Shown here in pieces: positions 2,667 through 43,358 of a stretch of 64,000 nucleotides of DNA. Location: positions 496,001 through 560,000 of the forward strand of contig CP047043.1 of the NCBI GenBank assembly GCA_020541285.1. Reading direction: 5' to 3'. A program made the position numbers and the translations under genes. The notes beneath the pieces are model-generated. The model saw only the letters and a list, made by a program, of their open reading frames with translations, ran no database searches and had not been told where the DNA came from. The DNA is from Candidatus Gillettellia adelgis. GTDB lineage: Bacteria > Pseudomonadota > Gammaproteobacteria > Enterobacterales > Enterobacteriaceae. The stretch's first letter is position 1, and the number at the start of each line of letters is the position of its first letter.

Positions 2667-5179
2667 GAGATGATTATTAGTAATTGTATAATATTCTATA
2701 GCAGTTATAACAAGCTACACAGATTAACTCTACATCGGTATACATGAAATAATATACATACTATATTCTGTTATAGTAGATACATATGATAGGTGGTCAG
2801 TAAAAGAAGTAGCAAGGGAGGACACACTAAGTAGTAGTTGTTTTATTAAGTTTTATAATGGCGCGTCTCGAAAGCTATTAGACATATATCGAAATATTTG
2901 ACTGTTAATTTTAATAGCAGACTTTATTTATGTAATATTACTAATATTACTTTTTAGTAGTTACTATGTACAACAGATCTGATTAATTGTATTATACCTG
3001 TTAAATACTGTTAAAGTCATATACATTTTACATGAATATTATGTTAAGTATATATGCATAATTGTTTAATATGCTTGATTTTTAACACTTACGTATGTCG
3101 ATGACGATGAACTTTATCTCCGAGCAAAAAGAAGGGCTTGAATGGTTTTATTATAAGTGGCCCAATATAATGGGATGTTATCGCATTTTGGTGAGACCGG
3201 AATACTTTCATATCAATTACAGTACTTTTAAAAAACATTCAAAATAAGTATATTCCTCCATAAGAAGCAAGTTCATTGAATATGTTTTATAACGTCGTAA
3301 AAGATTTATAGTTGTTACAATAGCTCAGGTTATATATATCTGCATTAGAAATGGATCATATAATCTTACCAGTAAGCGCACTGGTATGGCAGAAAACCAA
3401 AGCGGAGCATAAATCTCTAAAAGCAATATAATTGCAGCACAGATTAAAAACTTATCAACTATCTAATGTAGTAGCTTAGCTTACCCAATAGATTCTCATT
3501 GAGAAGATTGATTATTGAGTATCTGTTATATTGTGTCAATTAAAACTCATTTATAGATGTATCGCAGTAGTTGTAATAATCGAGATTATCTAGTTTAACT
3601 ATATAAAACTCATGTAGAACGTCATAGGTCTTGATAATCACTTATTCAAAATAGATCGAGAAGTTAGAAAGTAGTAATGATATTACAAGTTATTAGCGAT
3701 TGCCTTGTAGTTTTTAATTTAATTTCATTAGAAAAATAGTTGAATGCTATAAATGGTAAAAAAGAGATACCGTTATACAATTGCATTAAATGTGTATAGA
3801 AAATCCGTTAAGCGTCTTGCGATATATTATTAGGATTCAACAGAATACTATTTCCCACAATTTTTACTCAGTTTAGATACTGAAAAATGTTAAGTTAACG
3901 ACATATTTTCCGATATATTATAAATTGTATAACGATTAAGTTTATCGATTATTAAATGATGTATTGAGTCTGATTCTCTAGGTTTGTTTTTACGTCTTTG
4001 AGCGTACTCTACTGAGAGTATACATGCTAGTAATTGCACGATGGCGTCATAAAAAATGGTGTTTCTTATAAGTTTTGTGTATAGCGGTTGTGCGTTAGAC
4101 CTATTACGGAAATCTATAATTAAGCAGATAACTGATTTAATGTATTCTTTTATTTAGATGCGATAACAGACATTTACCTAACGTGCTTTCTGTATACATA
4201 TAAAAACTTATTTTTAATCAAATGATAAGTTATAGTCATTATTTGATTTTGTATTAAATCAATTCTTTGGAATTGACGACTGACTATCCAATAGATATGT
4301 CCTTTTTTTACTTTTGTAGATGTAGCTAATATAACTTCTCGGTATATTATTAACATTGCCTCTGATGCTAATTGTCATACTGCTATTCGTATGAAAGCTA
4401 CTGAATAATAGATGTTATCAGAAGTTCAATTAACGCCGCTAGCAAAAACTTTTTTATTAGCAGATACTGTGCTATAGCTGCAGAAAAATCATACCCATAT
4501 AAAAAATAATAGACGACATGACCTTGAGTCATCGCAATATTGGTTGTTCAGTGAAGTAATCTTTATATGAGCTGCATCTAGGTTAGTAACCTACATAATT
4601 TTTAGTACGTTGTGCTAAATAATGATACCAAAAATTTTTGAGTGTAGATGAGCGTAATATCTCAACAATTTTGATCGCTTACAACCGATAAAAATTACGA
4701 TCCAGTAAAGTGACGCACATCGGAAAATTACTATTCAAAAAAATAAATGTCGATATTATCTGTGTTGACCTGAGGTTCATCATTTTTTTAGAAGAACAAG
4801 TAACTTTAATGTAGTATTAATTGCAATAAAATTTAATAATATAGCAGTTTTACGGGAGTTAATAGAAAGCCATAGTCCTATTATCTACTGTGAAGTAGCG
4901 TAGTCTCTAATTTAATGCAGGGTAATTTGCGTGCAATCTAACTAGAATCTTAAAGATAATAGAAAGACAGAATGTCTTAGTTGAATTTATATATACACTC
5001 AGATAGTGATAACATCACTAATACAATGCTTAAATCTGTTACAAGTACTTAGCCAGTAACTCTTGCATTGATGAGTTACGCTGATAAACTAAGATGTGCG
5101 TACTTAACAGTATAGTTACTCGCTGTAAAATATTACCCTTGAACAAGGAGACTAATGTAAACCAGAACGGCATGATTAG

Positions 5180-35406: not shown

Positions 35407-37387
35407 TGTTTCACTCCTCAATATATTATGTTTAGGAAAGCTTAAAGATTAAAGTATACGCTTTTTAATCTTCGATGATCAGTTTTTTATTTTAAATGCT
35501 CTTTGTTTTAGAGGCGCCGATTGATAGTGGATAATAGCATATTATGTTAATAACTTTAGGTGTGTAGTATAGTATGTCCAGGACGATCTTGGAATGATGT
35601 TTTAAAAATCTAGCTATAGTGAGCGGCACTGAGTTATTACTAGGCATAAGTCATTTATCGACAGGTAATCTCTTATATAATGCTTGTTCTATCATTTTTT
35701 TATTTTAGTAGTGGTCTGTTATGTATCAGAGAGTTCATACTCTACATGTGTTTTGCCTAAAATGTCTTTCAGTGAAAAATATAAATAGCTTTACTTAATG
35801 TTATCAGATCTAAAAAATTATTTATTATGCTTGTATGCTATATTTATACTGTATATTCATCATGATACCCTACCTAATTTGTTTAGTTAAACAGTATATT
35901 TATCTAACGTTTTTAGGTTATTTGAATAAAGGAGCTATCTGATACTAAAGGTATATTTAAAATATTTGAATCAGTTATCTGCTGATGTAATATGAATACA
36001 TCAGTTCTTACAATCATTAATATCAGTCGGTTAGTAGCCATCAATCACTAGATGCAAGACTTTATATTGTATAGCGCGAGAATACGTTACTATGTTTATC
36101 CTTTACTACTTAAAAAATTGCATCTAGAATAATGAGTAAGATATCTGATGATCGACACAAAAGGTAACACCTTAAAATAGCTATTATATTTATAATATGC
36201 AGTTTATTTAAAGATTGTAGTGGTAACACACGAAGAGTGTGTAACTTTGTTGTAATGGTAATGCTGGGTATTAAGATTATGTGAAGTCGTTATAACTAAT
36301 AAAATGACTGGTTAGACCACTTGAAACAAGTATGTGTTATGTAACATCTTTTATTAAAGAGCCTAACATAGTATTCGAGGTATCTAGAATTTTATAAATA
36401 TTTTATCTAACATCACTGATGCTGATGAATAACAATAGATCGTTGCTTAGCTGTCTAGTGTATAATAGAGCGGCTAATTAGTAGTGATTAGATGATGTCT
36501 TGCGACGCTAAACATACAGGTAACTAAAACATTTAGATCCTATATCTTTTATCCTTGTAACCATCAATGCATAATGACACAATAAAAGTATAATAGGTGT
36601 CACTCAGGAAAAACGAGTATCTAAATGGGTAAGGTGATAGACTCGTTTGGTTGTATTGCTGGATACAACAGTATGAATTGATAAGATATCCTTCTATGAT
36701 CAAGTCTAATAAATTAGTGCTTAAGAAATTTAAAAAAATGGATCGTGACGATAAGCAGTCACGTTTTATTAGGTCGCTATCAACTAAAAGTATTTCCTTG
36801 CGAGTAATTGCAAGTGCAGTGTACGTTATGCAGATAGTTCTTTATATCTGGCATGTAAGTAGATAACATTTGGTATGCATCAACTCATTAAGAATGATCT
36901 ATCTAATCTCTAGATCAGCATACGTTAAAGAATTAATAAATTTACGGTTTGCATTATACTCAAATAACTGTCGACACATGGCTTGTAAATTTTAAATGGC
37001 TATTTTAGGTATTTATCAAGATAGTAATGCACTGAAATATAATAATAAAGCTTAGTAAGTATATTAGTGATTGAGTGCTCATGAAATATAGTAGCTTTAT
37101 GTAGTCATGTTTCTTCTTTGTGCATATTTATACTATGAGTAGTTAATTTTGTTTCTTCCGATTAGTGTGTTTTGTATAGTCAATTATATGACTTTTATTA
37201 CAGGTAGAGTCAGTCAGTAATAAATCAGGTTCTAGATATAAGTATCAGTATGTGGTGGAGATAATTGCAACACCCTAATATATACTAATGTTGCTGTACA
37301 ACGGATACAAATAAAAGCATAAAATGCACATTACATTGATCAATAATATACAGTATCATACATAGATTGTATGATTTTGATTGAGCT
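35407..37387. other. Divergent rpsT-ribF intergenic region
   Basis: Nearly 2 kb between divergent genes that in E. coli are separated by only a few hundred base pairs. The left arm of a long inverted repeat is at 36941-37160. A 71-codon open frame at 36651-36866 resembles nothing I know. The extra length could be an eroded gene (murJ lies here in some gammaproteobacteria) but I could not read one. Confidence 0.5.
36941..37160. repeat. Inverted repeat flanking ribF, left arm
   Basis: The reverse complement of this segment recurs at 38411-38640. The core, 37061-37100, is a perfect 40-bp match to 38476-38515 in inverted orientation. Outside the core the arms remain alignable with scattered substitutions and small indels, roughly four in five bases agreeing by eye. 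ribF lies between the arms. Confidence 0.93.
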
Positions 37388-38338
37388 ATGCAGCTGATTC
37401 GCGGAATTCATAATCTTCATACGCACCATCATGGTTGCGTGCTTACTATTGGTAATTTTGACGGTGTACATCAAGGTCATCAGGAGGTACTCAAGAAACT
37501 AAAAAAAGTAGGACGATCGCTGGATCTACCTACCATGGTCATGATCTTTGAGCCACAGCCGTTAGAAGTATTTAAAACACATCAGGTACCGGCGCGTCTG
37601 ATGTGCTTACGTGATAAGGTCAAATATCTAGTTAAAGCTGAAATAGACTATCTATTGTGCGTGAAGTTTGATGCAGGTTTTGCAGCTAATACTGCACAAG
37701 CATTCATAAATGAATTACTCGTTAAAAAACTTGGCATTAAATTATTAATAGTGGGAGATGATTTTCACTTTGGTGCGGGTCACCAAGGTGACTTTGCATT
37801 GTTACAGCAGGCTGGGGAAGAATATGGATTTCAAGTGATTAGCATTACTACCATTTGTGCAAGTGGTTTGCGTGTTAGTAGCACTGCTATACGTTATGCG
37901 TTGAATAGTGACGATCTTCTTTTGGCAGGAAGTTTGCTAGGTCATCCATATAGTATATCTGGCCGTGTAGTTCATGGCAATGCACTAGGACGCACTATTG
38001 GTTTTCCTACTGCTAATCTTCCACTGAAAGGTCTTGTATCACCTGTGAAAGGTGTCTATGCAGTGGATGTATATGGCGTACAGCCTAATCCACTCCCAGG
38101 CGTGGCTAATATCGGTACGCGTCCGACACTTTCTGGTGTCTGCCAGCAACTGGAGGTACATTTACTAGATGTTACTATGGATCTGTATGGAAACCATATT
38201 GATGTTGTGTTTCAGAGAAAATTGCGTAATGAAAAACGTTTTATTTCTCTGGATGCACTAAAAAAGCAAATCGCTGATGATATAGTAATGGTGCGCCAGT
38301 TCTTAGCGTTAAAACATAGTTCGCATTGCTTACTATAA
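37388..38338 (+). CDS. ribF: Bifunctional riboflavin kinase/FAD synthetase
   Basis: Phosphorylates riboflavin to FMN and adenylates FMN to FAD. It is 316 aa (E. coli 313). The N-terminal nucleotidyltransferase domain has GNFDGVHQGHQ (about residues 23-33) and the ISSTAIR-type motif as VSSTAIRYAL; the C-terminal flavokinase domain has GRVVHGNALGRTIGFPTAN and the later GVANIGTRPT. The ribosome site is weak. Normally it is followed closely by ileS; here a 1-kb insertion separates them, carrying one arm of the inverted repeat. The other arm lies upstream. Confidence 0.97.
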   Translation: MQLIRGIHNLHTHHHGCVLTIGNFDGVHQGHQEVLKKLKKVGRSLDLPTMVMIFEPQPLEVFKTHQVPARLMCLRDKVKYLVKAEIDYLLCVKFDAGFAANTAQAFINELLVKKLGIKLLIVGDDFHFGAGHQGDFALLQQAGEEYGFQVISITTICASGLRVSSTAIRYALNSDDLLLAGSLLGHPYSISGRVVHGNALGRTIGFPTANLPLKGLVSPVKGVYAVDVYGVQPNPLPGVANIGTRPTLSGVCQQLEVHLLDVTMDLYGNHIDVVFQRKLRNEKRFISLDALKKQIADDIVMVRQFLALKHSSHCLL

Positions 38339-39373
38339 AAATATATCTAGTTATTGAAATACTTCTTGCATTAGACAGCTCAATTTATGGTCATGAAAGT
38401 TCATTTATTACTGGGACAAGCAATAAATCAACTACTCATAGTATAAATATTCAAAAAAGAAGAAACATACCTAGTATAAAGCTACTATATTTCATGAGCA
38501 CTCAATCACTAATATTCTTAATAAGGTTTTTATTATTACATTTCAGTGTGTTGCTATCTTGATAACAACGGAAACAATAGCCACTTAAAAATTATAAATC
38601 CATATATTGATAGTTATTTGAGTGTAGTGAAAACCATACAGCTTATCTATTCTCTAGAGCATAAGCTTTTTCTAACTACGCAACTCTTATTTAAATATGA
38701 ATAAATGATAAGTGTTAGTCATGCATTCTGTGCATGATTCAAAGTTTACAATGCACGGAGCGTTAATTATAAAAAGTATTTTCTTATATATACATAAAAG
38801 ATAGATACTTCTCAAAATCTGCAAAAAGTTACAAATGTTCCAAGAATGACGAATTTACATGTTATTAACACTATTCATTCGTCACACTGAGTAAGACTGG
38901 TATTTGGTTAAATGCTTAATAAAAAAATGCTTAGAACAATAACCACTAGAATTATCTTTACCGATCTAAAACCTTATCAGCAGTTTTGTGTGCATAATAT
39001 ATCTAACACAGTCATCTAAAATATGACATACATTAATAATGATAATCTAGTCCATTGTATCACAAGTAAGATAACTTATTTGATCGTACATAGAATGTAA
39101 ACTATATTTTGATAAACTTAATGATACAGTTAAAAACTGTGGATGGGCGGGTGATAGTGGTGAACAATAAAACAAACAATCATTATTGCTGCGCCGTAAC
39201 ATAGGTGTCCTGTCAAGACAGAGGCCATTGATTTTACAATACTTTTAGTATTCGTGGGTATGTTTTCGTACAAGATCAATGATGACTTCCAGATAATAAG
39301 ATATCACTTTGAGCTCATGAAGTACAATTTGAAATATCATTAGCAAATCGTTGAAAACGGAAATAAAAATCTT
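38339..39373. other. ribF-ileS spacer, about 1 kb
   Basis: E. coli has only a few tens of bases here. The right arm of the inverted repeat takes 38411-38640; the rest has no gene. A 78-codon open frame overlapping the end of ribF (38326-38562) lies largely in the repeat and is not credible as a gene. Confidence 0.6.
38411..38640. repeat. Inverted repeat flanking ribF, right arm
   Basis: Reverse-complement partner of 36941-37160, with the 40-bp identical core at 38476-38515. The arm starts about 70 bp after the ribF stop and lies wholly within the abnormally long ribF-ileS spacer. The distance between the two cores is 1375 bp, so recombination between them would invert ribF. Confidence 0.93.
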
Positions 39374-42190: not shown

Positions 42191-42671
42191 GGCAGAATAC
42201 TTGATAAGTCAACGAATCAATTCAACTGGCTTGCGATGGCTGTGGTTAGTAGTAGTAGTGTTGATCTTGGATTGTTCTAGTAAGCAGTGGGTGATTAGCC
42301 ACTTTGTATTGGGTCAATCGGAACCCTTAATGCCATGGTGTAGTTTATATTATGCCCGTAATGATGGTGCTGCATTTAGTCTTTTAGCTGGGCATAACGG
42401 CTGGCAGCGCTGGTTTTTTGTGGGTGTAACTATCGTGATTGTTTTAGAGTTGCTGATGCTTATGTACCATAGCAGTGCGAAAAAAAAGCTAATCAATATT
42501 GCGCATGCTTTTATGATTGGTGGTGCGCTTGGTAACTTGTTTGATCGTATATGGTATGGTTTTGTAGTGGACTTTATCGATTTTTCTATCGGTAATTGGC
42601 ACTATCCGACCTTCAATCTAGCGGATAGCTTTATTTGCATAGGTGTATCGATGCTCTTATTATGCTCATAA
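42183..42671 (+). CDS. lspA: Prolipoprotein signal peptidase (LspA)
   Basis: Inner-membrane aspartyl protease that removes the signal peptide from diacylglyceryl-prolipoproteins; dolP in this window encodes one substrate. I start it at ATG 42183, which overlaps the end of ileS; the frame opens 8 codons earlier with TTG. It is 162 aa (E. coli 164). Four membrane segments are visible, with the catalytic aspartates in [18 protein letters not shown] and NLADSF. The C terminus stops at SMLLLCS, shorter than the usual cytoplasmic tail. fkpB, the next gene in E. coli, is a relic. Confidence 0.96.
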
Positions 42672-43358
42672 TGCTTTTATAATCAGAGTATATATGGGTA
42701 GTTTGTAATCTTAGTGATTAATTATTATGAAATTTTATGAGATTAATAAATATTATGCCTCAGTATTTTGCCCGGTTTTAGCGTTAGAGTTTTTAAAATT
42801 AGTGAACACTGATGTAGTATGCCATCACGATCTTTCTGCAATCTTAGGATAAGAAATATAGCCAGCTTCCACTGGCTAAAAAAAGTAACTATAAAAATAC
42901 AGGTGATTAGTAATAAATTATCCGGTTGTCATTGAAGATGTACTATTATTATATTTATGCGGTGGCTATAAATCACTCACTCTGCAACTCGACTAGTATC
43001 ATCGGAAAATTTACCTTCTTCTTTTACATAAAGTGGTTTAGTTTTGCATATATAAAAATAATTATTTGGTGCGTATACAGATAATATAAGTACTTAACTT
43101 TACTGTTGTAATGAGTATTAAGAATAGAAGAACAGAATTTAATTAGTTCTTTTAATTGTGCATTTTCTCACAGAACAGTATTTATGAAATAGATGTTTTA
43201 TATTATTAATACCATTAGTAGTCGTACAACATCTAGATTAGAACATACAGTGCAGTATTGGAATACTTGAATATAATGAATATTAAATATTATTGACAGG
43301 TTATTCAGTGACCTTTAAGACTGCAGTACTAGCGATAACTCTAAGAAGTAGGAGTAGA
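42672..43358. other. lspA-ispH interval
   Basis: 687 bp without an intact gene, occupied mainly by the fkpB relic. A small hairpin AGCCAG/CTGGCT at about 42861-42880 is followed by an A-run on the plus strand, so it is not a terminator in either direction. Confidence 0.6.
42937..43355 (+). pseudogene. fkpB: fkpB relic (FKBP-type peptidyl-prolyl isomerase)
   Basis: E. coli has fkpB between lspA and ispH, ending just before ispH. Here DVLLLY (from 42937) aligns with AVLVHF; CNSTSIIGKFTFF (42983-43021) with AESTRNNGKPALF; and [17 protein letters not shown] just before ispH with PLAGQTVHFDIEVLEID. Stops and frame changes separate these blocks, so no isomerase can be made. The last block explains why the ispH frame appears open 22 codons too far upstream. 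This is one of the clearest dead genes in the window. Confidence 0.85.

Follow-up and report, generated by a model that had tools for sequence, protein, structure and literature searches.

The inverted repeat enclosing ribF in Candidatus Gillettellia adelgis is one of a genome-wide set of spaced inverted repeats on a chromosome without detectable recA and sbcC

Introduction

The gene ribF of Candidatus Gillettellia adelgis is enclosed by two copies of a non-coding sequence in opposite orientations. How did this structure arise, what keeps its arms alike, and is it peculiar to this locus? The locus lies in a 64-kb stretch of DNA, here called the window, which corresponds to positions 496001-560000 of a single-contig genome of 1.41 Mb. 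The G+C content of the genome is 34%, and ORFs of at least 100 aa cover 43% of it (87% of the genome sampled). This low coding density resembles that of adelgid symbionts, where gene fossils were held responsible and neither insertion sequences nor a proliferation of repeats was reported (PMC8857208). The word 'inverted' does not occur in the main text of that study; our search covered the open-access literature, and an earlier description elsewhere is possible. The RibF and IleS proteins of the present genome group loosely with those of Serratia symbiotica.

RecA is normally credited with bacterial gene conversion. A recA-less chromosome with homogenising repeat arms would be a testbed for RecA-independent recombination, and the same chromosome would reveal the behaviour of long inverted repeats in cells lacking SbcCD.

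Results

An old inverted repeat encloses ribF

Self-BLAST aligned a 224-bp arm upstream of ribF with the reverse complement of a 232-bp arm downstream, giving 190 identities, 34 mismatches and 8 gap columns, that is, 81.9% identity over 232 columns (E ~1e-50; Table 1). The arms of about 220-230 bp reported in a preliminary description of the locus are thus real and slightly longer than claimed. They align outside the perfect 40-bp core, whose two copies are exact reverse complements of each other, and no homology above chance continues past the arm ends, either outward or inward. The longest exact inverted match spaced by up to 2.5 kb was 13-17 bp in order-1 shuffles of the 64-kb window (n = 10), as against the 40 bp observed. 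The same description had taken the repeat for a recent duplication. This dating does not suit the pair, which, with arms 82% identical and eight gap columns, is among the oldest members of the class described below.

Table 1. Features of the ribF locus (window coordinates) and spaced inverted repeats found in the genome survey (genome coordinates)
Feature	Position	Strand	Context	Loop (bp)
Left arm	window 36926..37149	+	non-coding, inside 1966-bp rpsT-ribF spacer; self-BLAST 81.9% vs reverse complement of 38425-38656
Right arm	window 38425..38656	-	non-coding, inside 1035-bp ribF-ileS spacer
40-bp perfect core, left copy	window 37061..37100	+	exact match
40-bp perfect core, right copy	window 38476..38515	-	exact match
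ribF (bifunctional riboflavin kinase/FAD synthetase)	window 37388..38338	+	intact, 316 aa, sole loop gene
Inverted repeat	genome 3543/5471		upstream of mnmG	1550
Inverted repeat	genome 130483/132169		between yebC and tusE
Inverted repeat	genome 225715/228138		loop gene asd	1549
Inverted repeat	genome 253960/256328		loop gene ygfZ
Inverted repeat	genome 457777/458919		kdsD-prmB
Inverted repeat	genome 532926/534425		loop gene ribF (64-kb window)
Inverted repeat	genome 667759/668896		adjoins LpoB-like gene
Inverted repeat	genome 762717/765748		loop gene wecA
Inverted repeat	genome 857322/859544		loop gene tmaR
Inverted repeat	genome 1237166/1239969		loop gene cysS
Inverted repeat	genome 1276572/1279146		loop gene of 337 aa, without NCBIfam match	1559

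The ribF product scored above the cut-offs of NCBIfam NF004163 (488 bits) and TIGR00083 (342 bits). The order and orientation of the genes, rpsT(-), ribF(+) and ileS(+), are ancestral, and the spacers that hold the arms are swollen. The rpsT-ribF spacer is 1966 bp long vs ~380 bp in Serratia symbiotica, and the ribF-ileS spacer, rightly described as normally tiny, is 1035 bp long vs ~200 bp in Serratia symbiotica and ~40-90 bp in most other relatives. Despite this swelling, the 47 bases immediately 5' of ileS are still recognisable. Elsewhere in the window, the lspA-ispH interval (42671-43293), where relatives usually have fkpB, is a remaining spacer of ~620 bp with no ORF of at least 80 aa.

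Further copies of the arm sequence, which the preliminary description had considered, are absent: the whole 1,413,209-bp chromosome holds the two copies only. The arms matched no Rfam family and had no homologues in phages, E. coli genomes or plasmids (ribF itself aside); 391 other genomes of the family gave only chance matches of 20-40 bp. A gene between paired inverted copies resembles a composite transposon, and the arms could be imagined as remnants of such an element or of an IS pair around ribF. Given the missing matches and the two-copy sequence, a mobile-element origin is scarcely credible. A promoter or terminator role for the arms was also considered and rejected, as promoter-like sites are fewer than the shuffled mean.

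Eleven spaced inverted repeats are scattered over the chromosome

We surveyed 1.234 Mb (87% of the genome) for repeats of at least 100 bp with at least 72% identity and at most 20 kb apart, after joining the stretches and searching each against itself. This survey yielded 11 spaced inverted repeats with arms of 155-1044 bp, identities of 72.6-100% and loops of 541-2309 bp. Within the same 1.234 Mb there were no inverted repeats with loops of 2.4-20 kb and no direct repeats within these cut-offs. The 11 repeats are scattered over the chromosome with arms of at most 1044 bp, unlike the terminus-type large inverted repeat (>8 kb, at the terminus). Each arm sequence is two-copy and confined to its own locus in the sampled 87%, with one 44-bp partial match, and no sequence is common to arms of different loci, which also speaks against mobile elements. 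The ribF repeat is thus unique in its sequence, but as a structure it has ten or more counterparts elsewhere in the genome, which lie beyond the reach of a description based on the window.

Some members of the set deserve description. The youngest-looking repeat (genome 667759-669491) has perfect 596-bp arms and a 541-bp loop. The repeat directly after yebC (genome 130483-133212) has 1044-bp arms that are 99.4% identical and stands where E. coli has ruvC followed by ruvA-ruvB. Three loops of near-equal size (1550, 1549 and 1559 bp at 3543/5471, 225715/228138 and 1276572/1279146) have no common sequence; among 11 loops, this agreement is probably a coincidence. The 107-aa loop gene was first taken for a type III secretion protein, an assignment that was rejected in favor of TmaR according to NCBIfam.

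Arms avoid genes, and most loops hold exactly one

No arm (0/22) overlaps an ORF of at least 100 aa. With an ORF-based gene definition and tests devised post hoc, the joint chance of ORF-free source arms for all 11 repeats was ~2.7e-4 given non-coding insertion points and sources drawn at random from the vicinity, and that of ORF-free arms was ~2e-8 when both arms were placed at random. Seven of the 11 loops contain exactly one gene (asd, ygfZ, ribF, wecA, tmaR, cysS and the unnamed 337-aa gene) and four contain none. Under the same post hoc, ORF-based definition, seven gene-holding loops compare with 2.7 expected given non-coding arms (P = 0.0026).

The gene-free arms bear on the quality of the assembly. 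Hairpin reads or chimeras could create inverted copies, and several pairs are indeed 98-100% identical. We regard such an artefact as extremely unlikely, because artefacts would ignore gene boundaries and all 22 arms are clean. Nor would they bring 6-27% divergence with indels, eroded arm ends (see below), or the same pattern in a second genome, G008.

Differences between arms cluster at the arm ends

When the differences between arms were counted per fifth of arm length and summed over the ten imperfect pairs, the distribution was 85, 35, 22, 36 and 60. The outer two fifths carry 145 of the 238 differences (p ~1e-10), and nine of the ten pairs are skewed toward the arm ends. This is seen in the cysS pair (17, 2, 2, 3, 14), the tmaR pair (10, 1, 0, 0, 1) and the yebC/tusE pair (0, 0, 0, 0, 6). 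The skew is not an alignment artefact, because simulated duplications with uniform decay, analyzed by the same BLAST procedure, gave an outer-fifth share of only 0.38-0.42. Since differences cluster at the ends while interiors are near-identical, the profiles support arm-to-arm gene conversion at the level of the class, as far as can be read from sequence.

The ribF pair shows a weak end effect (11, 13, 8, 2, 6; the outer fifths carry 17 of 40). Its sole significant departure from uniform decay is the identical core, which exceeds the length predicted by uniform divergence (permutation p ~0.006). Gene conversion, which had been suggested for this locus, therefore finds its support in the end-clustered differences of the class; the ribF pair by itself adds only the over-long core. 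One could instead assume that a single inverted duplication took place and that its arms have merely decayed ever since, without conversion between them, and the 82% identity and modest end erosion at ribF would fit. The length of the core, together with sister pairs that combine identical interiors with diverged ends, makes plain decay unlikely. We take the ribF pair to be old, with conversion that may have nearly lapsed.

One loop is reversed

The preliminary description predicted that recombination between the arms would flip ribF. As stated above, ribF is in its ancestral orientation, and so are asd and wecA, as well as ygfZ when judged against prfB, which lies farther away. On the other hand, cysS is head-to-tail with folD here, whereas E. 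coli, Klebsiella, Proteus and G013 have the pair in a convergent arrangement; the cysS loop is thus reversed with respect to these four enterobacterial genomes. From this comparison, loop flipping is plausible within the class, as inferred from one assembly, although ribF itself gives no sign of it. The gene on the other side of cysS, fre, is likewise a new neighbour, so that an unrelated rearrangement could have caused the reversal. Taken together, the orientations suit occasional loop inversion with selection holding operon genes like ribF forward; one reversed loop is not proof.

Two other accounts of the repeats turn on these orientations. If a loop had been inverted once by staggered breaks and the broken ends filled in, inverted duplications would be left at both breakpoints. 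Such an event demands intergenic arms, as found in 22 of 22 cases, and it would explain the inverted cysS, but ribF, asd, wecA and, relative to prfB, ygfZ keep the ancestral orientation and four loops contain no gene. We consider staggered-break inversion improbable, somewhat more so than plain decay. Alternatively, the repeats might be kept as adaptive switches that turn genes on and off by flipping. Single-gene loops and the reversed cysS loop would be expected of such switches, but the nameable enclosed genes are mostly housekeeping genes, a non-exhaustive look at loop and neighbouring genes revealed no recombinase, and different loci share no arm sequence; this function is very unlikely. 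At ribF in particular, where the arms of 224-232 bp are unique to the locus and no neighbouring gene encodes a recombinase, we found no site-specific invertible switch.

Repair genes and related genomes

Neither recA nor sbcC had a match in the whole genome, and both were detected in all 14 control genomes. Other repair genes were sought with E. coli queries in the sampled 87% of the genome. There, recBCD, polA, uvrD, gyrB, dnaN and dnaA are present; recF, recO, recR, ruvA, ruvC, sbcD, mutS, mutL, xerC, xerD and priC were provisionally not found, and ruvB, recG, recQ and recJ gave provisional, weak partial matches only. RecBCD is thus kept where RecA is missing. Nor did the sampled part yield xerC or xerD, although the chromosome consists of one contig.

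The related genome G008 (2.03 Mb) also has neither recA nor sbcC. In 600 kb of it we found two spaced inverted repeats and zero direct repeats. One of the two (stretch L189:10009-13028) has 923-bp arms, 81% identical, with tusE as the sole enclosed gene, and its differences per tenth are U-shaped (30, 22, 17, 13, 7, 3, 16, 22, 22, 21). No spaced inverted repeats were found in G013, G016, G015 and G007 (200-400 kb sampled each). G013 has recA and no sbcC; its sampled stretches contain no such repeats. G016 (5.1 Mb, 91% ORF cover) and G015 were compared by repeats alone. G007, which was repeat-free in 200 kb, has no recA and an sbcC-like stretch of 41 residues only, and ORFs cover 87% of it. Because this repeat-free genome is also densely coding, the effect of recA/sbcC loss cannot be separated from that of abundant non-coding DNA in this comparison.

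Discussion

We think it probable that local inverted duplications form a genome-wide set on the RecA-less and SbcCD-less chromosome of a shrinking symbiont, and that the ribF repeat is an old one among them. Such duplications would arise by fold-back or a template switch, undergo RecA-independent homogenisation, and persist longest around needed genes. We infer birth, flipping and conversion from one assembly. While DNA is replicated or a break is repaired, a 3' end would fold back or switch strand at a nearby short inverted match, copy a few hundred bases backwards, and then resume synthesis, leaving an arm, a loop of at most ~2.3 kb and an inverted arm. Without the SbcCD nuclease, the resulting long hairpins may escape cutting. 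The divergence profiles suggest that the arms are then recopied from each other. This copying would presumably need no RecA and most likely proceed through template switches at the replication fork, keeping interiors identical while the ends erode. The same template copying could flip the loop, as suggested at cysS. A survival filter may also act: pairs with coding arms would be lost because a decayed copy would overwrite the gene, and pairs around one needed gene would be over-represented because pairs with empty loops are more readily deleted whole. At ribF, this homogenisation would have largely ceased, and what is left is a perfect 40-bp core in a pair of 82% overall identity.

The large inverted repeat of plastids offers a parallel, as its arms are kept identical by conversion and the region between them can flip. 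In contrast to the class described here, it depends on RecA-type recombination, its gene-containing arms are tens of kb long, and there is one pair per genome. Closer to the proposed mechanism is quasipalindrome mutagenesis in yeast, in which template switching homogenises repeat arms and inverts spacers (PMC8604942): arms are copied mutually, the spacer is invertible, and classical recombination is not required. There, the arms are short and the spacers just a few bases long, whereas the present arms are 155-1044 bp long and the loops of 0.5-2.3 kb include several with a whole gene. In starving E. coli, inverted template switches produce local inverted duplications (PMC3161906), which are likewise local inverted copies in a bacterium; however, they span 5-43 kb under amplification selection, and those found here are short and apparently unselected. 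The large inverted repeats at the terminus of Lactobacillus bulgaricus, for which an origin in a double-strand break close to a small inverted repeat was proposed (PMC5345009), are likewise long and flank a short central region, but there is one per genome, at the terminus, with arms of 19-38 kb, instead of many small non-coding ones chromosome-wide. A parallel among symbionts is Portiera, whose reduced genomes have likewise lost repair genes and have swollen spacers and repeats; they are unstable and repeat-rich, one of them with 23 direct and 17 inverted repeats, and the instability was tied to loss of dnaQ (PMC7821994). Portiera has both repeat orientations, whereas the present genome, without recA and sbcC, has inverted repeats only.

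A wider generalization is tentative and clearly less secure than the account of ribF. In bacteria without RecA and SbcCD and rich in non-coding DNA, inverted repeats may keep arising, homogenise themselves and flip their loops by RecA-independent copying. Loops around needed genes would be undeletable, and single genes would so accumulate in self-correcting hairpins, possibly in mixed orientations within a population. As symbiont genomes shrink, such repeats may, we suggest, supply them with new non-coding DNA and invert single genes.

Apart from the spaced repeats, three spacerless, near-perfect palindromes of 52-82 bp were observed (stretches L133:15564-15645, L143:711-787 and L144:7564-7615), and their presence is consistent with the loss of SbcCD.
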